DNA of 31,307 bases, taken from the IMG/VR virus record IMGVR_UViG_3300031226_000006, positions 1-31,307 of that record. One strand, given 5' to 3'. Below, piece by piece: positions 2,688 through 15,006 of the stretch (its first letter is position 1; every line of letters begins with the position of its first letter). The position numbers and the translations under genes were made by a program. The notes beneath the pieces were generated by a model. That model did not search any database, had not been told where the DNA came from, and was given only the letters and a program-made list of their open reading frames with translations. The stretch is from a virus.

Positions 2688-2879
2688 ATGCTGAAACGCC
2701 TGATCAGACGCTGGAAGATACACACCCTCGCCCGAAAGCTTGACCCTAAGGCTTTCGAAGAGGGTCGTATTTTCTCAATATTGATTGCCAGGAAAAGGGC
2801 TGAAATGAAGCTGGCAGAAGCTAAGCCCGCAGCCTCAGCCGAAGCGGGGCAACCGCAGTCGGTACAAAAGCGCCGTTAG
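2688..2879 (+). CDS. small basic hypothetical protein, 63 aa, overlapping the end of the opposing spike gene
   Basis: The ORF starts at an ATG preceded by a G-rich GTGGGGG tract, a weak SD. The product MLKRLIRRWKIHTLARKLDP... is very basic at the N-terminus and ends in a low-complexity Ala/Glu/Gln tail. The last 59 bases overlap, tail to tail, the 3' end of the minus-strand 927-residue spike gene. Because the overlapped part encodes a conserved C-terminal motif on the other strand, the tail of this protein is probably not under its own strong constraint. Function unknown. Confidence 0.5.
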   Translation: MLKRLIRRWKIHTLARKLDPKAFEEGRIFSILIARKRAEMKLAEAKPAASAEAGQPQSVQKRR

Positions 2880-5604
2880 CGTCATTCCGAACAAATGCGT
2901 TCACGGCCGCCATCTGCGTTGGATTTAGATCGGTATCGAAAATAAGATCAGCGTGCATCGTTCCGCGCGCTTCCGAGTTCGACCAAATGTAGGTTCCAGT
3001 CACAACGTTCGCCCCAGCCGTCCACTTCGAACTGGAAGAACCCATCATGAGCGGGTAGTTTGTGAGTGTATTTATAGCATCACTTTGTTGATAGCAGACA
3101 ATGAAGTGAGGATTAAAAGCCGCGCCTGACACTGGCGTCCCAGACGCCCCATTTGCCCAGCAACTGAGATTTGATCCGTCCCACATGCCCGCTACGATTT
3201 GAGGATTGTCGCCAGCGGAAAGTGCAGGTGCGGTCGCGGTAACAACTGCGCTCGTTGAAGTGCTGGTGTCGCTCAACAGAAAAGTCACAGTTCCTTGCGC
3301 GCCAGACCCCTCAGACAGCACCATGCCATGACTAAATTCGTTCATCGCCATTGGCGTGAACACACCCGTTCCATTCTTGCGATAAGAGGAAATGACGGTG
3401 ATCTTCTCTTTGCGCTGTAATGCCTGCAGCCGCCCCATCACGCCTTGGCCGCGCCCATTGTTGCCGTACATGCCACGCGATGTCGTGTTAGGATTTATGA
3501 GTCCGGGGGCGATGCCGTTGACTGCTGTTGCGCTATAGGTCGTTGTGGAGGCACTTGAGCCGGTGTCCCAAGGGGTATAGTCACCCATCCTCGGAAGCCG
3601 CGTTGTGCCAAGGTCAAAGCACCGAGTGACGACAGACGTTTTCGCGACCCCCATCCACGCGAACCTGCCGAGCATTAGGTGCTGGAGCAAGTTTTGCGCC
3701 GTCAACATTGCGACGAAGTTCTTGATCTTGATCTCATTGATAGTGGTCGGATCAGCGCCGGCTGCTAGTACGCGGGTCATGTGCTTGTTCGTCAGCTGGT
3801 CATAGGCGCCGACGTAGGTTGAAACCACGCGAGAGCCCGCCTCTACGCCGCCGTTGAGCGTGACCACCTTGTAATAATAGACAGAGCCCAGCGTGGCCGT
3901 GGAATCGACGTATTGCCCAACGCTGCTGACGTCGCCAAGGTTGGTCGTGATACTACCCGCCGAGGTGCCTCGATAGATTCGATAGGCGTGGCCTGGAATG
4001 ACGTCGTACCAATTAAGCGTGACGTTTCCTGACGAACACTTAGCTTTGAGACCCGGAGGAGCTGCACTGGCAGCCGCTGTCGCATCGATCACGTCTAAAT
4101 GAAGGTCAAGATACTCATTGTACATCCCGCCGCCGTTTTCGTAGTACTCGCCTAATGTGGCTGTCCCAATTTGAGGGAAAAATCCCAGCACGACGTAGTT
4201 GTAGCGGATACCGTCTTCCAGATAGCCGCTAGTGCTGCTGATGTACGACTCTTGCGGGAATATACCGGCGTACATTGCAGAAAGCCGCGTCGGCGCAGGC
4301 GATGCCAGACAGTTACCTTGCGTGTCGATGGCAACTTGCGTCAGAAACATCCCGCCGTCCGTAGCGACATCCCAATGTGTGGGACTCGACGCGGGAGGGT
4401 TGTTTAGATTGCCGGCAGTCTTTGAAACGTAAGACTGGTGTTCGTAGTAATGTTGATCGCGCGGGCCTGTTGGCGCATTAGGATATTTTACGCCGCTGTA
4501 GGTAAATATTTGAGCTTTGTCACCAACCGCGTAGGTCGTACCGCTCGACCAAACAGAGCCTCGTGCATCCTCTGTTGCGGTGGTGTATTTTTGCGCTCCA
4601 ATGAAATATGGAGGATTGAATCCTGTAAAGAATTTGCTGTTGCCGAGAATGGTGTTCGTTGTGCCTCCGTACTCCCATCGACGACCATCCGTTGACGTAT
4701 AGTAGCCCCGAAGGCCATCTTCAAAACCGACATCCCGCGGTCCGAAAGAAACCCAGTTGCCGGTGCTGATGCGTTGCGGAGTTTGCTGGGCAACCGTTCC
4801 GAAACCGGGGTTGTTGAACATATTCGTAAAGGCGGCGCCTTGGAGGGTCCAAGTATCAAGATCAGCCGTCGTGAAAAGGATGTTGTTGAAGGCGTTGGTA
4901 TTGATGCCGGCCCCGTTGGGGCAGCCCTGAATGTAAAGAAAACCGGGAGCGCCGGGCTCGTCAGGGTTGTAAACAAACATCGGGAAGTAAATCCCGGAGA
5001 AACGCTGAGTCCCGGTGAGACTTGCAGTAAATGTCCCGGCTGCAACCGCGCCGCCCTGGTTGGCGCTCAACGTGTAGTCGCCGGGACCACCCTTGCCGGT
5101 GATCTTGGCCGTGATGTGCGCCGCAACCGGAAGCCCGTTGATGACATATCCGAACCCGACTATCCCCGTGTCTGTAAGAGACGGCGTTATCGAATTGATC
5201 CGCAGCGTGGTGCCGTTAGCTAAAACTTCCGCATTGAAGGTCGCGGTGATGCCTGATTGGATAACCCCTTGCGGGGAGATAATCGCGGCCATCGTCGTTG
5301 GATCAGGCGGGATAGCAGGGTCGTTCGAGTACCCAATCCAGATCGCATGAGAGTCAAACCCCCACGTAAACACGTAGCTGTAGTGGTTCGGGGCGATGAA
5401 CCAGATATAGCGATAGCCCTTAGCCGCTTTGCGCGCGGCACCCCACGATCCCATTGCGTCGAGATCGTATGGAGCGCCACCAAACGTCAGCGCGCCGCCG
5501 TTGTGGTAGTAGTCCGACATGCTGGTCGCAGGTCGATCGGTCGTCCGCGACGACGCCGGGGCTCCGAATGCAGGCGAGAAGAAATTGGTTTCGACGAGCG
5601 CCAT
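2821..5604 (-). CDS. large tail spike/fibre protein, 927 aa, propeller-like, fnIII-like and lectin-like regions
   Basis: This is the last gene of the minus-strand adhesin block, starting in a TAATG overlap with the previous gene. Residues 1-100 begin MALVETNFFSPAFGAP and look like an attachment domain. Residues about 100-195 are a Gly-rich beta domain with a 'G.YTLS..QGG' pattern common in tail proteins. Residues about 200-500 contain repeated 'T..D...W' elements (LFTTADLDTWTLQG, YYTSTDGRRWEYGG), as in beta-propeller glycoside hydrolases and sialidase-like proteins. Residues about 515-598 match a fibronectin type III-like module (NVTLNWYDVIPGHAYRIYRG). Residues about 738-910 look like a concanavalin/LamG-type sandwich. 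The C-terminus VPTAVAPLRLRLRA is shared with the neighbouring 810-residue protein. Likely role: receptor binding, possibly glycan cleavage. No catalytic residue can be assigned with confidence. Confidence 0.8.
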   Translation of the reverse strand: MALVETNFFSPAFGAPASSRTTDRPATSMSDYYHNGGALTFGGAPYDLDAMGSWGAARKAAKGYRYIWFIAPNHYSYVFTWGFDSHAIWIGYSNDPAIPPDPTTMAAIISPQGVIQSGITATFNAEVLANGTTLRINSITPSLTDTGIVGFGYVINGLPVAAHITAKITGKGGPGDYTLSANQGGAVAAGTFTASLTGTQRFSGIYFPMFVYNPDEPGAPGFLYIQGCPNGAGINTNAFNNILFTTADLDTWTLQGAAFTNMFNNPGFGTVAQQTPQRISTGNWVSFGPRDVGFEDGLRGYYTSTDGRRWEYGGTTNTILGNSKFFTGFNPPYFIGAQKYTTATEDARGSVWSSGTTYAVGDKAQIFTYSGVKYPNAPTGPRDQHYYEHQSYVSKTAGNLNNPPASSPTHWDVATDGGMFLTQVAIDTQGNCLASPAPTRLSAMYAGIFPQESYISSTSGYLEDGIRYNYVVLGFFPQIGTATLGEYYENGGGMYNEYLDLHLDVIDATAAASAAPPGLKAKCSSGNVTLNWYDVIPGHAYRIYRGTSAGSITTNLGDVSSVGQYVDSTATLGSVYYYKVVTLNGGVEAGSRVVSTYVGAYDQLTNKHMTRVLAAGADPTTINEIKIKNFVAMLTAQNLLQHLMLGRFAWMGVAKTSVVTRCFDLGTTRLPRMGDYTPWDTGSSASTTTYSATAVNGIAPGLINPNTTSRGMYGNNGRGQGVMGRLQALQRKEKITVISSYRKNGTGVFTPMAMNEFSHGMVLSEGSGAQGTVTFLLSDTSTSTSAVVTATAPALSAGDNPQIVAGMWDGSNLSCWANGASGTPVSGAAFNPHFIVCYQQSDAINTLTNYPLMMGSSSSKWTAGANVVTGTYIWSNSEARGTMHADLIFDTDLNPTQMAAVNAFVRNDANGAFVPTAVAPLRLRLRA

Positions 5605-8036
5605 TATGCCCTCAACCTGAGACGGAGCGGTGCCACGGCGGCGGGAACGGCCGACGGAATACCTTGGTCTGTGATCATTTCTATTGTGAATTCTGGCCAG
5701 GTACTTTGGCTTTCGCCGGAAATACTCGACGAAAGAAGGGCGCTGAAACCTGCCCCGATCCAGGCCGGACTGGAGCCAAGACTTAACCCGGAATCTCCTA
5801 CCTGCGACCCCGTGACACTACCTCCCGCAAGAATGACACGCTCGCCAAGCTGCTTGACGTTGATGCGAGGATTGTAGGCGACCCAGGCTCCATTGATGAA
5901 GAGAAAGACTTGAAACTGAGCAAGACCTGCTGTCAGCGTTCCAGAGATCGCGCCTGTATAAATCTTGGTTACATTGATCTTAAGCGATTGGATAAACCCG
6001 ACCATCGGAGTCAGGGACCCCGCATTAGCAAGCGCGCCAGCTTCAGAAAGGCGGATTCCAGCCGATGCGGCGGTAGGGCACGCTCTGTACTGCCTCTTTG
6101 TGTACGAGTCTAATGGCCTATTCCATGCCGCTGGCTGCGACAAATCTATGATGTGATCGTTGCCCGTACAATTCTCAAACCGAACGGATCTAGCTGCTGG
6201 CACCCTCAGAGTTAATTTGACGGCAATTGGAGCAACCGGCAGCGGATCGGTGCTGTCAGTCTGAATGTACATATTGCATGTACCCCATTGAAGTGTACGA
6301 GATACAGACGTCAGGTCATAGTTTGTGCTAGCGTGGAAGACGGTGATGGTTGTCGCGTTCGTATACCCTGTTATATGCGAATAGCAGCTTCCGGGATGAG
6401 ATGATTGGACCGTTCCAGAGCCTCCGCTGGTAGCGATAGCCGATCCTCCGACCGTGGCTGAGACAGAAAATGTATTTGTCGTCAGGTTGGCGGCAACGAC
6501 ATAGTACGTAACACCCGTGGAAATGCCGCTCGGCAAGGTACCCGATCCGGCCTGGAATCGAACAGGCTCATTGAGGGGCTTGCCGTGGTTGTTTTGAGTA
6601 ACAACCCCCGGAGACGCGTTGGAAATTGTGCAGTTGTCATATCCAGAGATAGCCTCAAAACCGGGAATAAAGATCGTTTTCCCGACATCGCCTGGCGAGA
6701 AAATTCCAGATCCAGCCGTTATGATCTTCGATCCATTCACCGTGGATATTGTAGTTGTGACCGTTTGATTATCGGCCGCAGGCCATCTGTCGGATGTGAC
6801 GGACAGCGACTTGAAATACCCGAATGATCCAAACTGCCCCATAAAAAAGATGACATTCCGGCCTAGAGCGTCGGGCATTAAGGTGCGTGTAGCGTTATCG
6901 CCCAGCCACATCGGAATCGTTATGATGCTTCCAGTTTTGGTGGCGCATCCGCCGAGGCCAAGATCGCTGGCAAGATTATCGCTCGGCCCGCCTTCGGTCA
7001 GACCCCCGGTTATGGCGCTGGTGAAGGAAGTGTTCTTCGCAACAAATGTATTGGCTCTGCCGTATGAAGTCGGGCCGACATAGCAAGTCCCTATAGCACA
7101 GCCATCAAGAACAGTATTGAGAACGGTTCCATTCAGGATTTCGGTGACGGTGGTACCCGTCATCTGAAGCAAATTGGTGCTAGAACTCTGGCAGTGCCAA
7201 ACCCGATACGTTCCGCCTTGAAGATCGACCAAGCCAATACACTTGTCGTGTTCAACACTTCCCGCAGTCGAGGTATGATTAATCGCTCGGAAAACACGGC
7301 TGACAGTCGGATAAAGCGGGAAATTTACGATCGAGCCTCCGGTTATCTGGAAGACTTCCCGATTGGTATTAAGGAGATTGTTATGACTAAAAGATCCGTC
7401 AACGATGTTTGTCATTCCACCCCATGCGGAATTTAGGCCCACCAACGTCGCGGGGCCTCCACCGTCTGTTTCGAAAGCAGTACCGCGGCTCATCTCGGGC
7501 CATTCCGAACTATAATAGTTCGTTAATGGCGTACTGAAATGAACTGTATTTCCAACGATGCTAGTGATTTGTACATGATCAATAAAATGCCAATTCGGAG
7601 GGAATCCGTAGCCAGATTGGAAGCCGCTTTGAATAGGCCAGCCAGCGACAATACACCACTGCCCAACCGTGAAGCGTGAGATATGTCCTGCAGAAGCAGA
7701 GGCGGCGGTTAACGTGACGCTAGTCGCCCCAACATTCGCAGTTTGGATTCTGGCGTTTTTGCCGGCGCCTTGATCAATGCCGATTTGAGCAATGTGTCTC
7801 GTTTGGAAATTTGGCACATTGTTGAACGTCGCACCTGTGGCGGTCAGGTTCAAATCCTTCATTCCGTCAATCCAGAAGAAGAAGTTGGTGCCGCCGTAGT
7901 ACGTTCCGGCCGGGACGGTCAGGTTTACATCCTGCCCTGCGCCGTCCGTTTGAAGGCTTTGGAGAGCCGTCTGGATACTAACGACGCCAGTGTTGTCGGC
8001 GCCGTAGTCCGTTACCAGGTTTTTGGTAATTGCCAT
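5604..8036 (-). CDS. tail spike protein, 810 aa, pectate-lyase-like beta-helix
   Basis: The N-terminus MAITKNLVTDYGADNTG...QTALQSL...VPAGTYY has the signature of the pectate-lyase-3-type opening of parallel beta-helix tailspikes: 'DYGA..DG..D....A......G..v.vPaGtY'. Residues about 30-400 carry the repeated short strands expected of the helix. At about residues 478-545 there is an inserted module (SGTLPSGISTGVTYYVVAANLTTNTFSVSATVGG) that recurs in many phage structural proteins. The end carries VPAAVAPLRLRLRA, nearly identical to the 927-residue neighbour. The start is in a TGATG overlap. Likely role: host recognition, possibly polysaccharide degradation. It is unusually long for a simple spike, so several domains are fused. 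Confidence 0.85.
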   Translation of the reverse strand: MAITKNLVTDYGADNTGVVSIQTALQSLQTDGAGQDVNLTVPAGTYYGGTNFFFWIDGMKDLNLTATGATFNNVPNFQTRHIAQIGIDQGAGKNARIQTANVGATSVTLTAASASAGHISRFTVGQWCIVAGWPIQSGFQSGYGFPPNWHFIDHVQITSIVGNTVHFSTPLTNYYSSEWPEMSRGTAFETDGGGPATLVGLNSAWGGMTNIVDGSFSHNNLLNTNREVFQITGGSIVNFPLYPTVSRVFRAINHTSTAGSVEHDKCIGLVDLQGGTYRVWHCQSSSTNLLQMTGTTVTEILNGTVLNTVLDGCAIGTCYVGPTSYGRANTFVAKNTSFTSAITGGLTEGGPSDNLASDLGLGGCATKTGSIITIPMWLGDNATRTLMPDALGRNVIFFMGQFGSFGYFKSLSVTSDRWPAADNQTVTTTISTVNGSKIITAGSGIFSPGDVGKTIFIPGFEAISGYDNCTISNASPGVVTQNNHGKPLNEPVRFQAGSGTLPSGISTGVTYYVVAANLTTNTFSVSATVGGSAIATSGGSGTVQSSHPGSCYSHITGYTNATTITVFHASTNYDLTSVSRTLQWGTCNMYIQTDSTDPLPVAPIAVKLTLRVPAARSVRFENCTGNDHIIDLSQPAAWNRPLDSYTKRQYRACPTAASAGIRLSEAGALANAGSLTPMVGFIQSLKINVTKIYTGAISGTLTAGLAQFQVFLFINGAWVAYNPRINVKQLGERVILAGGSVTGSQVGDSGLSLGSSPAWIGAGFSALLSSSISGESQSTWPEFTIEMITDQGIPSAVPAAVAPLRLRLRA

Positions 8037-8872
8037 CAGCCACCAATGACGCCGATGACGCCCCCACCACCGCCGGAAGGACCGCTAATTGTGATGCCGG
8101 TGTTCTTCCCGAGATCGAATGAATTCGTTGCGGTGATCGATCCTGCCCCAGATTTGGTAACGCCTTGGAAGGCCGCCCAATCGGCTGTTGAAGCAGACCC
8201 AACTGAAACGGTATTGATGTTTGCAATAGTGGAAGACATAAGCCCCGAAGGTGCGCTAGACGTTCCCGTTATCGTCAATGCGCCGGTAATAGTCGTAGTC
8301 GCAAGTTGAGGCGGAACAAGTGTGTTGCCGCTATTGATTGTCACAGAGCTAAAAGTATTTGAGCCACCCAATGAAAATGGCGCCCGCGAACTGTTGGAAT
8401 TTATAGTGAGGCTGCCAAAGGTTTGACCACCTCCGTTAAAAGTTCGACCGACAGACGCGTTGCCAGTGAAGACAAGGGCTGCATTCTGAAAAGTCGGAAT
8501 GAGGTTTGTGACAGTTCCGACATCAAAAATAGCTGCGGCTGTGGTATTCGTAAATGTCCACGTTCCGCTGCCCATGTCGATCGTTCGGGTACCCGTGCCA
8601 GAGAATGAAACACCGGGCGCTCCTGAGGTCGTGACGTTGTTGTCATTGGTGCCAAAGTCTAGAGTCCCAGTAAATGCACCAGCCGTAATTGATATCACGG
8701 TGACGGTCGTATTGACGGTTACCGTTCCCCCGCCAGACGCAGCATCGAACGTAACAACATCGCCAGAACCTGGCACGGATTGACCGCCCGCGGCCCCAGT
8801 TGTTAACGCCCAATGCGTCGTATCTGACGCGTCCCACGTTCCCGTGCCGCCTACCCAAAAACGGTTCGCCAT
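8036..8872 (-). CDS. beta-rich tail/adhesin protein, 278 aa
   Basis: The product starts MANRFWVGGTGTWDASDTTHWA and continues with VPGSGDVVTFDAASGGGTVTV. This opening is characteristic of phage tail-associated and autotransporter-like beta-helical proteins ('WVGG.GTW......WS......P...D.V.FD'). The remainder is almost entirely short Ser/Thr/Asn/Gly-rich strands at regular spacing (LTINS, VTINSG, LTITGTS), consistent with a right-handed beta-solenoid. It ends in a Gly-rich stretch. An AAGGTG SD lies in the end of the preceding gene, with a 3-base gap. Probable role: surface-exposed tail component. No enzymatic residues are visible. Confidence 0.75.
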   Translation of the reverse strand: MANRFWVGGTGTWDASDTTHWALTTGAAGGQSVPGSGDVVTFDAASGGGTVTVNTTVTVISITAGAFTGTLDFGTNDNNVTTSGAPGVSFSGTGTRTIDMGSGTWTFTNTTAAAIFDVGTVTNLIPTFQNAALVFTGNASVGRTFNGGGQTFGSLTINSNSSRAPFSLGGSNTFSSVTINSGNTLVPPQLATTTITGALTITGTSSAPSGLMSSTIANINTVSVGSASTADWAAFQGVTKSGAGSITATNSFDLGKNTGITISGPSGGGGGVIGVIGG

Positions 8873-8875
8873 GTC

Positions 8876-9946
8876 TTACACCTTGCTCTTGAAGCCGATG
8901 AGGGTGACAGTGACGGTCGTTGCAGCAGCCGACGGATCAGCGCAAACGGCAGTCGCCGCGCTGAACGGAAGCGGGACAGGAAGATTGCAGATCGCGCCGC
9001 TGACATTTGCCGGAACAGGGAACGTTGCCTTTACACTCCCGGCCGCTCCATCTCGAAGATCCACCGTGACGGCGGTTGCCGAGCTGTTCGAGAAGATTGC
9101 GCTGGTGATGTAGTTCTTGACGCCGGCTCCTGCGGAGGCGATCACCGAGGTTGACGATCCGTCCGTGATCGCCGCAACGCCGGAAACGATGTCTTCCAGG
9201 TTACAATGCGGGCGGACGATCTGAGCACCATCGATGCCGGCGAAACTATCCGTCACATCCGCGTCAGCAACTAGTGTGCGCCCCGCAAGGCTGGTTGTTG
9301 CTTTGTGGCCTCCCTTGACCGGCGCGGTTGAGTCCGCGGCGTCATGGGCAATAGGACCAGCGGCTTTTAGCGTAGCCGCAATTAGCGTCGTGACGTTCTG
9401 TGCGATACGCTGTAGGCGACCATTGAGACCAGATGATGCCGTGTCGCTGGCCGGCGCCGTTTCAGTAAGACCACCAAGCCGGGTGGCATTCGTTCCATCG
9501 GTCGGCGTGTCTACCAATTGGTAGCCGTCAGTCATCGCCCCGGCTGTCGTCCTGTTGGGCGCGAGCTGCGCGGTATCGATAGACATCCGCTGGGTTCTCG
9601 TTCCGCTCGTTCCGATGCCAAGATCCCATGCCGTCGAGCCGATCGCAGTAACCAAGCTCTGCACACTGGCGCTGATCTGCTTGAACACCTGCATGAAGGT
9701 GACGGAGGTCGCGTCGGTCGCTGTGCTCTTGGCATCCGTTGCGGCGCCGTGAAGTGTGATCAGTGAGGTAACCCGCTGAGCAATCCGCTGCAGTCGACCA
9801 TTCAGACCAGATGAAGCAGTATCTGATGCCGGCGCTGTTTCAATAACTGATCCGATGACCGTGTTGGTTTTGGAGAGCGTCGGGACCGTACCCGTTCCTG
9901 TAGTTGGGACACCAGCTACGATATCGACGTCTGTAATTTCAGCCAT
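8876..9946 (-). CDS. tail fibre-like virion protein with an internal 28-residue repeat, 356 aa
   Basis: The N-terminal two-thirds is Thr/Ala/Ser-rich with predicted coiled or fibrous character. It holds two nearly identical 28-residue segments beginning ETAPASDTASSGLNGRLQRI (residues 36-63 and 162-189). The C-terminal about 110 residues (from IVSGVAAITDGSSTSV on) form a beta-rich module with paired strands and 'AVTVDLRDGAAGSVKATFPVP'. That module is familiar from phage minor structural proteins. An AAGGG seven bases before the ATG supports the start. It lies just downstream of the 46-residue gene. Function is inferred: a trimeric fibre or baseplate-like element. Confidence 0.75.
   Translation of the reverse strand: MAEITDVDIVAGVPTTGTGTVPTLSKTNTVIGSVIETAPASDTASSGLNGRLQRIAQRVTSLITLHGAATDAKSTATDATSVTFMQVFKQISASVQSLVTAIGSTAWDLGIGTSGTRTQRMSIDTAQLAPNRTTAGAMTDGYQLVDTPTDGTNATRLGGLTETAPASDTASSGLNGRLQRIAQNVTTLIAATLKAAGPIAHDAADSTAPVKGGHKATTSLAGRTLVADADVTDSFAGIDGAQIVRPHCNLEDIVSGVAAITDGSSTSVIASAGAGVKNYITSAIFSNSSATAVTVDLRDGAAGSVKATFPVPANVSGAICNLPVPLPFSAATAVCADPSAAATTVTVTLIGFKSKV
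9380..9463 (-). repeat. copy 2 of an 84-bp coding repeat inside the 356-residue fibre gene
   Basis: This segment encodes residues 162-189. It differs from copy 1 only at two residues (QRV to QNV and TSL to TTL). The two copies are separated by 98 residues of unrelated Thr/Ser-rich sequence, so this is not a simple tandem repeat. Confidence 0.85.
9758..9841 (-). repeat. copy 1 of an 84-bp coding repeat inside the 356-residue fibre gene
   Basis: This segment encodes residues 36-63 of the fibre protein. It matches copy 2 at 26 of 28 residues and, by hand alignment, at 61 of 84 bases. Many differences are synonymous, which points to an old duplication held by selection on the protein. Confidence 0.85.
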
Positions 9947-10101: not shown

Positions 10102-10482
10102 TCAGAACCCGTAGATGTAATAGGTTGGAGTAGATGCGCCGACGACGGCGGTCGCCGTGAGCAAGAATGCCTTGTCGATCACCGACCCCGCGCCGTTGTC
10201 AGCTCGGATGGTCACCGGGTAAGAGCCGGCCGCGATCGTGGTGCTGGTAACCCGCAGATCACTGCCCGAGATGTTGAACAGCGTCCCGGGATTGCTCTGG
10301 AATGAATAGGTATAAGTCCCCGTCCCGCCCGTAACCGACAGCGCGCCGATCACTGTGTTGAGTGCGGAGTTCTCGGGAAATGACGATGCTGACAGGCCCA
10401 TCGAAGTGCCGTGTCTTTTCTGACGCTCATCCTGCCAGCGCCAGTAAGTATCCCTGCGCCACTTCGCTATCCGCATTACCAT
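10102..10482 (-). CDS. cadherin/Ig-like domain virion protein, 126 aa
   Basis: After a basic N-terminus (MVMRIAKWRRDTYWRWQDERQKR), residues about 30-110 form a single Ig-like beta sandwich. The pattern FPENSALNTVIGALSVTGGTGTYTYSF...NISGSDLRVTSTTIAAGSYPVTIRADNGAG is that of a cadherin-like or 'putative Ig' repeat found in bacterial and phage surface proteins. An AGGA six bases before the first ATG supports the start. It is the first gene of the adhesin block and lies head to head with the homing endonuclease gene. Likely role: decoration or carbohydrate-binding part of the tail. The basic N-terminus may dock it. Confidence 0.7.
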   Translation of the reverse strand: MVMRIAKWRRDTYWRWQDERQKRHGTSMGLSASSFPENSALNTVIGALSVTGGTGTYTYSFQSNPGTLFNISGSDLRVTSTTIAAGSYPVTIRADNGAGSVIDKAFLLTATAVVGASTPTYYIYGF

Positions 10483-10581: not shown

Positions 10582-11094
10582 ATGCTGCCTCATAAACCGC
10601 CGTCCGCCATCAGAGTTGATGGTGAAATTGCCTACATTTTCTTGAGAGAAGGCTGTGAAGCCATCATTGATGCAGCCGATATTCATCTAGTAGCTGGGCG
10701 TCGCTGGCGGCTTCTAACAACAAAGAAACGACACAAGTACGCATGCTCTGGACAAAGTAGAGACGGCACCTTCACAACCTTACATCGATTTTTAGCCCGT
10801 CCATTGGACAATTTGAAGGTTGACCATAGAGACGGCGACGGCCTGAATAACAGGCGCAAAAACATTCGTCCTGCAACTGGGACTCAGAATAACGCGAACT
10901 GTTCTGCATCTCGGAAGAACAAGCTCGGCGTCAAAGGAGTTGCTTTCTTAGACGGACTAGAGAACGGGTTTGTGGCTTCGATAAAAATAAACGGGAAATC
11001 GAAGCACTTAGGCCGCTTCAAAACAGCGGAAGAAGCTTCCGGAGCCTACCTATCAGCGGCTCAAGAAGCTTGGGGCGAATTTGCTAGAAAATGA
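10582..11094 (+). CDS. HNH homing endonuclease with AP2 DNA-binding domain, 170 aa
   Basis: Residues about 65-100 carry the HNH_3-type signature: LHRFLA, then KVDHRDGDGLNNRRKNIRPAT, then QNN. The key residues are His68, Asp81-His82, Asn89/Asn90 and Asn94. Residues about 113-160 (KLGVKGVAF...KHLGRFKTAEEASGAYLSAA) match an AP2-type DNA-binding module, the usual C-terminal partner in free-standing phage HNH endonucleases. The gene lies opposite in direction to the flanking minus-strand genes and looks AT-richer than they do. It has its own likely promoter and RBS. The catalytic residues are intact, so it is probably active. It is a selfish element inserted between the lysis/membrane cluster and the adhesin block. 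Confidence 0.93.
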   Translation: MLPHKPPSAIRVDGEIAYIFLREGCEAIIDAADIHLVAGRRWRLLTTKKRHKYACSGQSRDGTFTTLHRFLARPLDNLKVDHRDGDGLNNRRKNIRPATGTQNNANCSASRKNKLGVKGVAFLDGLENGFVASIKINGKSKHLGRFKTAEEASGAYLSAAQEAWGEFARK

Positions 11095-13860: not shown

Positions 13861-13969
13861 CGAGGAAAACGCCACTGAAGAGCAGCGCCGATACGCATCT
13901 ACGCCGATCGCGGCCTATACGATCGCAGCTCTCATGCTGTTAGGATTGGTTATCACCCTATTGACTTAA
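13847..13969 (+). CDS. 40-aa small membrane protein
   Basis: The sequence MQPFDEENATEEQRRYASTPIAAYTIAALMLLGLVITLLT has an acidic head and a hydrophobic C-terminal helix (about residues 21-40), a tail-anchored type layout. A GAAAG 5-9 bases upstream of the ATG could act as RBS, and translation may be coupled to the overlapping 42-aa gene. Its TAA (13967-13969) shares two bases with the TAA of the opposing tail-fibre gene (13966-13968) in the palindrome TTAA. It ends exactly where the fibre gene ends, a tight tail-to-tail junction. Function unknown. Confidence 0.5.
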   Translation: MQPFDEENATEEQRRYASTPIAAYTIAALMLLGLVITLLT

Positions 13970-15006
13970 GAGATACGCACTGCCCACAAGGCGCCGTAGG
14001 CTGCCGCCGTCCCTCCTGTGAAATCCGCGGTTATGACGGCAAAGATCGTTGTCGGCGTCGTGATCATGTATGGGATCCATGGATAAGGTACGATCCATCC
14101 ATTCGATTGGTTGGATGTCAGATGCATCGCCACGGTGCTGCCATTGCCAGGCGATGTCTGAATGGAGGTAGATCCGGTCGCGTTATGATCAGCATGCATA
14201 TGCGTGAACACTGGAGACCCACTTGTCCCGAGCACTCCGACATTTCCTCCGAGAAACCAGCACCCGATCGGAAGAGCGAGCTGATTCCAGACGCTGCTAC
14301 TCCCGCCGGTGGATATGGCATATGCCCCCGCGATCGTTACGATCGAGCTTTTCGTTTCACCTATGTACCCGGCAGACGCCGCAATACCTGCCCTGCCCTC
14401 AACCGCAATGCCGCCGCCACCCGATCGCGATAGCGCGCCAGTCGTATCCGCAATCAATAGCGGCGAGTTCTGCCCGAGCTTGCCCGTCGTGGTATCGAAC
14501 CGAACTGCAGCATTGTCCGTTGCTGAAGCGGGACCGATGATGGCATTTACCGCGGATCCGGCAGCGGCAGCAGCAGCAACGGCTGATACGTTGGCAGCAG
14601 CCGCAGAAGCAGCTGCGGCAGCGACGGCCGCCGAAGTCACGGCTGTGATATTCAACGAGAGATATAAAACGAACGTGATACTATCCGTTCCGATATCCGG
14701 CTGATCGGAAATAATTGACCAGACGTTTCCGGCCTGCGTTCCCTCCTGAACATAGATCATCATCCCGGCGCGGATCGTGCGCGAGGAGGCAGCATCGGGG
14801 GCACGCTTCCACGCGCCCACCGATGCCGTATAGATCCCGTTAGCTGTAGCAGCCGTCTGGTTCTTGACGAGAACCCGATCGCCGGCAACGGTCACCACCC
14901 CGTCAACTGTCAGCAATCCAGACAGTGACAGGTTAGCAGTCGATGCCAGGCGAACCGGCTCTTTGTCGCCTGCGAGCAGACGAACAGCGGCAGTTTCACG
15001 AGCCAT
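13966..15006 (-). CDS. tail fibre protein, 346 aa
   Basis: Residues about 10-110 match a module common at the start of phage tail fibres: VRLASTANLSLSGLLTVDGVVTVAGDRVLVKNQTAATANGIYTAS, then GAWKRAPDA. An Ala-rich stretch of about 45 residues (TSAAVAAAAASAAAANVSAV...) follows, likely a helical coiled shaft. Next come a trimeric-fibre-like linker (ATDNAAVRFDTTTGKLGQNSP) and a beta-rich C-terminal head ending ALWAVRIS. An AGGA eight bases upstream supports the start. It is a probable receptor-binding or side-fibre protein. It lies upstream of the endolysin gene, apart from the main adhesin block. Confidence 0.85.
   Translation of the reverse strand: MARETAAVRLLAGDKEPVRLASTANLSLSGLLTVDGVVTVAGDRVLVKNQTAATANGIYTASVGAWKRAPDAASSRTIRAGMMIYVQEGTQAGNVWSIISDQPDIGTDSITFVLYLSLNITAVTSAAVAAAAASAAAANVSAVAAAAAAGSAVNAIIGPASATDNAAVRFDTTTGKLGQNSPLLIADTTGALSRSGGGGIAVEGRAGIAASAGYIGETKSSIVTIAGAYAISTGGSSSVWNQLALPIGCWFLGGNVGVLGTSGSPVFTHMHADHNATGSTSIQTSPGNGSTVAMHLTSNQSNGWIVPYPWIPYMITTPTTIFAVITADFTGGTAAAYGALWAVRIS

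Follow-up and report, generated by a model that had tools for sequence, protein, structure and literature searches.

The usual description of tailspikes is of an N-terminal anchor joined to an exchangeable C-terminal body, and in canonical tailspikes the C-terminus is distal. Those with a pectate-lyase fold are likewise generally described with an N-terminal anchor domain. In phages K1-5, K1E and SP6, the tailspikes carry conserved N-terminal hepta- or undecapeptides that dock to the adaptor gp37 (PMC6872550). The second receptor-binding proteins of Klebsiella phages of the KP32, KP34, Menlow and PhiK64-1 groups have an N-terminal 'conserved peptide', which is group-specific and is thought to dock on a T4gp10-like domain (PMC6872550). 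Virion attachment by a C-terminal domain is known for T4 Hoc and the tentaclins (PMC10743442).

Here we describe an 11-residue core, AVAPLRLRLRA, that ends two unrelated proteins of one virus as well as the diverged spikes of four further phages. Like the K1-5/SP6 peptides (7 or 11 residues), it is a short conserved end peptide on spikes with differing bodies, and in both cases two spikes occur in one podovirus. However, the K1-5/SP6 peptides are N-terminal, whereas the present tag always lies zero to one residues before the stop codon. Moreover, the 7- and 11-residue peptides of K1-5/SP6 are found on separate spikes, while here one C-terminal peptide is common to two. The Klebsiella second spikes are comparable in being anchor-less depolymerase-type spikes with a short conserved end, although theirs is N-terminal. 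Hoc and the tentaclins would resemble our proteins in attaching C-terminally, but they do so through a folded Ig-type or capsid-anchoring domain rather than an 11-residue peptide. A preliminary description of this DNA knew of no published tag of this form. For the C-terminal position and the sequence, which has no match in the open-access literature, we agree; however, N-terminal docking peptides of spikes were already known (PMC6872550).

The window, by which we mean the whole stretch of DNA analysed, is a 31.3-kb virus record of an epsilon15/SPN1S-like podovirus: its 754-residue tail protein is 34% identical to those of these phages, and a major head protein and a head-tail adaptor are recognisable. 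The tagged proteins are encoded in a gene cassette with the order W126, W356, W278, W810, W927. Features referred to below are as follows.

2821-5604, minus strand: W927, a large anchor-less adhesin, Fn3-like at residues 511-591, ending in the tag
2824-2865, minus strand: C-terminal tag of W927, VPTAVAPLRLRLRA (14-mer; core AVAPLRLRLRA at 2824-2856)
5604-8036, minus strand: W810, a tailspike predicted to be a beta-helix of the pectate-lyase type, lacking an N-terminal anchor domain and ending in the tag
5607-5648, minus strand: C-terminal tag of W810, VPAAVAPLRLRLRA (14-mer; core AVAPLRLRLRA at 5607-5639)
8036-8872, minus strand: W278, the gene upstream of W810, of the FWVGGTGTWD family, with homologues in G002, G409 and L074
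8039-8059, minus strand: a second tag, VIGVIGG, at the end of W278
8876-9946, minus strand: W356, a candidate adaptor and conserved cassette gene, also present ahead of the spike in G002, G003 and G409
13966-15006, minus strand: W346, a separate fibre with PHROG tail fibre and virion structural matches

W810 overlaps its neighbours at both ends, the W278 stop with the W810 start (TGATG) and the W810 stop with the W927 ATG (TAATG). W356 matches its counterparts in G002 and G003 at 68-78% (blastp), and it shares the terminus TVTLIGFKSKV with its G409 homologue. Pfam and PHROG gave no match to a T4gp10-like domain in W126, W278, W356 or W346. The short basic/aromatic start of W126 (10102-10482, minus strand), WRR...WRWQDERQ.RH, is kept in a relative (L205:7927-8424); the remainder differs, and in W126 a PKD-like domain follows the start stretch. 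An HNH-endonuclease-like ORF, assigned by eye, is located on the opposite strand between structural genes (10582-11094, plus strand) and has a relative in G002 (L070:8851-9420).

A shared end on two unrelated proteins

In translation, W927 ends in FVPTAVAPLRLRLRA and W810 in AVPAAVAPLRLRLRA, giving the shared end VP[T/A]AVAPLRLRLRA. The coordinates and hand count given earlier are correct: 13 of the 14 terminal residues are identical, and 11 of the 13 corresponding codons differ synonymously, which excludes a recent duplication or gene conversion between the two genes, as the preliminary description had argued. Outside the tail the two proteins are unrelated, as had also been proposed, and BLASTP returns only that stretch (14 residues, 93%, E ~1e-3). 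The W927/W810 pair also has by far the top score (BLOSUM62 sum 61, the next being 38) among 26,971 pairs of ORF C-termini from 18 sequence stretches, namely the window and the loci of related and tag-bearing phages; these pairs include ORFs in all frames, so they provide a background and not a p-value. The motif does not occur again within the window.

The bodies that precede the tag are structurally unrelated. The AlphaFold2 monomer of W810, built from a shallow six-sequence alignment and only partly confident (mean pLDDT 51), places the strands of the beta-helix at about residues 94-345, with a C-terminal beta-domain from 676 to 790; residues 791-810, which include the tag, are disordered. 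Foldseek relates this model to the tailspikes AP22 gp54 (E 3.5e-8) and LKA1 gp49, although with low TM-scores (0.18-0.23). Together, the strands and the Foldseek matches predict a right-handed beta-helix of the pectate-lyase fold, the same fold as in these two tailspikes. W810 departs from pectate-lyase-fold tailspikes in having no recognisable N-terminal virion anchor, its beta-helix entry motif, DYGADNTG, being reached at about residue 10, and in the added C-terminal tag. Spikes of the tagged family start in the same manner at the beta-helix (DYGA.. at residue ~10).

W927 belongs to no Pfam or PHROG family, and its only recognised part is the Fn3-like stretch (match to 3mpc, E 2.5e-5). Structure prediction from the single sequence reached a pLDDT of 30 and is unusable. 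No relatives were found in phages (INPHARED), plasmids, IMG/VR or 397 Hyphomicrobiales genomes; because no homologue was found, it is codon divergence that argues for conservation of, and selection on, the tag of W927.

Across the 11 codons of all six known copies, pN is 0-0.22 and pS 0.39-1.1, so that selection acts on the peptide, as first suggested from the two genes. Synonymous change is near saturation, which rules out DNA-level conservation, such as a recombination site or regulatory DNA, for AVAPLRLRLRA. Nine random substitutions in the 33-nucleotide core would leave the peptide unchanged with a probability of about 1.5e-5; this value and the background of pair scores rule out a chance origin. 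The copy in W927 is at least 7 of 33 nucleotides away from every other known copy, with no amino-acid change relative to four of the five others, and is identical to the G003 tag over 14 residues. Arginine is constant at 18 of 18 positions in the six copies, and one leucine and one alanine vary. We conclude that the tail is genuine and is maintained by selection as a protein element. A PEP-CTERM or VPLPA-CTERM sorting signal was considered and rejected: the terminus reads RLRLRA(A/V), with no hydrophobic helix after the motif.

Relatives with and without the tag

W810 has six relatives (G001, G002, G003, G409, L074 and L075). Among 2.9 million viral contigs, exact tag patterns identified three further genuine copies, in G001 (L003), G002 (L004) and G003 (L005/L069). 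Spike-core patterns, derived from an alignment that already included two of the tagged relatives, found the same three again together with two untagged homologues, L074 and L075. A search using only the upstream tag V[VI]GVIGG (see below) added one genuine contig, G409, in which the next gene is a tagged spike ending in TAVVPLRFRLRA with the variant core AVVPLRFRLRA; this gene runs across the ends of a circularly permuted contig (160-bp terminal overlap). All genuine extra copies lie at the extreme C-terminus of W810-family beta-helix spikes, and in G001, G002 and G003 the spike was the only tagged protein found. With the third position left free, the pattern occurs at gene ends in exactly the four known copies, the other 23 matches being internal or in shadow frames, and a relaxed pattern (large hydrophobics at Leu, Ile/Met at Val, Ser at Arg) gave no further real gene end in the viral contigs.

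In 84,980 bacterial and archaeal genomes there are 43 exact matches, nearly all internal or in shadow frames and none at a credible gene end, which rules out a general cellular tag. The only cellular matches within two residues of a stop codon, L050 and L060, are in open frames of 71 and 51 codons that bear no likeness to tagged spikes. INPHARED contains no relative of W810, of the G001 spike or of the tag itself, and the spike profile gave two weak local matches in the 397 Hyphomicrobiales genomes.

The spike bodies are only 26-63% identical (53-63% among G001, G003 and G409, 46% between W810 and G002, and 26-29% between these groups), while the core is invariant save for the one variant. When W810, G001, G002 and G003 are aligned, only the tag gives 11 consecutive invariant columns, and the best windows clear of it reach 6 of 11; G001, G002 and G003 were fetched by the tag pattern, and the invariance there is partly by construction. 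The preliminary description had staked its claim on the C-termini of homologues. The tag is present in five of the seven W810-family spikes and absent from two, a small sample in which the claim survives.

The untagged spikes show how the tag is joined to the body. L074 ends in TIECLTDQEF, exactly at the point where the linker and tag would begin, and L075 has another tail, PDIIVGPTKRHKHIATHI, in place of the tag. The spike tree places L074 with W810 and G002, both of which are tagged; therefore the tag has been gained or lost, and its presence has changed at least twice. Judging from these sequences, the tag is a modular extension beyond the folded end of the spike that can be gained or lost. 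The L074 spike (L074:5944-7827) has an extra N-terminal peptide, MLRFAGSERGIKNLTPIA, that is absent from tagged spikes and is possibly, in this one case, an alternative docking end.

Tagged spikes are spread over several phage builds, the four extra contigs spanning at least three different virion backbones. These backbones are epsilon15/SPN1S-like in the window, podovirus-type with a phrog_578 head-closure gene in G002, and of a third kind in G003 and G409; G001 has a tail-terminator gene on its contig and is probably a long-tailed phage. No non-spike gene common to all tagged contigs was seen, the G001 contig being only 6.8 kb.

Some details of gene structure concern individual relatives. 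In G002 the reading frame of the spike continues upstream of the first ATG, with an apparent GTG start (VALTKDIVADYGAD, L004 ~6100-6198); an ATG-based ORF is about 32 residues too short. In G003, a GDSL-type hydrolase gene (L069:10497-11075, plus strand) is convergent with the tagged spike and overlaps it by 26 nucleotides, tag codons included. A convergent copy of the GDSL-type hydrolase in G001 (L003 ~3543-4143, plus strand) is frameshifted in appearance.

The upstream tag and a probable anchor module on W346

A second short end, V[VI]GVIGG, closes the gene that precedes the spike in four phages. In the window, G002 and G409 this gene is of the FWVGGTGTWD family, and in G003 it encodes an unrelated DUF4082 protein. 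Outside the window it is located at L004:6076-6096, near 13227 of L069 and near 162 of L185. In L074, which has no spike tag, the W278 homologue ends in QTVYGG. G001 carries the spike tag and its preceding protein lacks V[VI]GVIGG, so the two tags are not obligatorily linked. The last codons of V[VI]GVIGG, GGTGGC, may also serve the TGATG-coupled spike start as its ribosome-binding site, and DNA-level constraint on this second tag is therefore possible.

The N-terminal domain of W346, AVRLLAGDKEPVRLAST (~120-150 residues), occurs in the close relatives G004 and G008 (58-67% identical) fused to other C-terminal parts (L205:11847-14255 and L206:10233-11462). The anchor-type domain of the phage is thus located on a separate gene. 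The W346 domain is probably a canonical N-terminal anchor module, one that is absent from W810 and W927.

Possible roles of the tag

Our preferred reading, to which we give slightly less than an even chance, is that AVAPLRLRLRA serves anchor-less receptor-binding proteins as a portable docking peptide at the C-terminus, a counterpart of the N-terminal peptides of K1-5 and SP6. W810 and W927 begin directly with their functional domains, with no recognisable N-terminal virion anchor. We infer that the extended peptide, in which Leu and Arg alternate after Pro, would bind a partner by lying as an added beta-strand in its groove; this partner would be on the virion or come from the same cassette, with W278, W356 and W346 as candidates. 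Two structurally unrelated receptor-binding proteins would thereby be seated on the same kind of socket, much as the K1-5/SP6 peptides seat their spikes. We favour docking because the spikes lack an anchor domain and an anchor-type domain is found on the separate gene W346. It is further consistent with the same 11-mer on two proteins that share no other similarity, and with the disorder of the tag in the W810 monomer, as expected of a linear motif. The invariance of the tag on diverged bodies, the low pN in all six copies and the end of L074 just ahead of the tag also speak for docking, as does the lack of further real gene ends under relaxed patterns. Against docking, tagged spikes are found on different virion backbones, so a common dock must travel with the cassette; a tag at the distal C-terminus of a canonical tailspike would face the host; and L074 and L075 have neither the tag nor a typical N-terminal anchor, so that anchor-less spikes can manage without it.

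The main rival, which we consider unlikely but well ahead of the other alternatives, is a portable trimer clasp in the manner of a mini-foldon. Three Leu/Arg strands would form a small C-terminal beta-prism with Leu inside and Arg outside, and would register or lock homotrimers of whatever body precedes them. Such a clasp would need no partner and could work on any virion, which fits the several backbones; the place at the very C-terminus and the strict alternation of Leu and Arg also agree with it, and phage fibres are known to carry small trimerisation tags at this end (the T4 fibritin foldon). However, L074 keeps the same C-terminal domain and yet stops before the tag, and arginines that never vary are more than a solvent-exposed face should need. 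Those same arginines, three per chain and nine per trimer, could instead belong to a cationic amphipathic strand at the distal trimer tip that binds anionic lipopolysaccharide or the outer membrane in a host group common to these phages. This would be independent of virion type and would agree with the distal C-termini of canonical tailspikes. We nevertheless find it improbable: the regions of phage adhesins that face the host are usually the quickest to diversify, but the tag is the most conserved block, and unspecific anionic binding needs no exact sequence identity.

Two further explanations give the tag no role in the finished virion or, on W927, no role at all. A signal for folding or quality control, recognised during infection by a shared chaperone or protease, would suit a peptide that is disordered in the model and common to two neighbouring, probably co-expressed large proteins; we regard it as quite improbable, since no chaperone-like gene is recognised beside the cassette and none is common to all tagged contigs. 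Least probable of all is a passive leftover, in which the recombination that brought in the W927 body also picked up the 3' end of a spike gene. W927 does directly follow W810, no other protein of its type is known, and its tag and the one in G003 agree over 14 residues. However, neutral drift would tend to break the W927 tag, and its seven or more nucleotide differences from all other copies have left the amino acids unchanged relative to four of five, unless an unsampled donor tag had nearly the same codons.

The two short ends might belong to one modular 'plug' system, in which spikes that differ in fold share AVAPLRLRLRA and the fibre gene before them is marked by V[VI]GVIGG. Such a pair would make up a pluggable array of receptor-binding proteins, outside the N-terminal anchor rule, that travels among podoviruses and a phage that is probably long-tailed; we put this broader proposal forward as doubtful. 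A conserved C-terminal peptide on unrelated bodies, crossing phage types, would break the N-terminal-anchor rule of tailspikes, and the tag would serve as a sequence marker for anchor-less receptor-binding proteins in metagenomes. The attachment of such proteins becomes directly testable with an 11-residue peptide.
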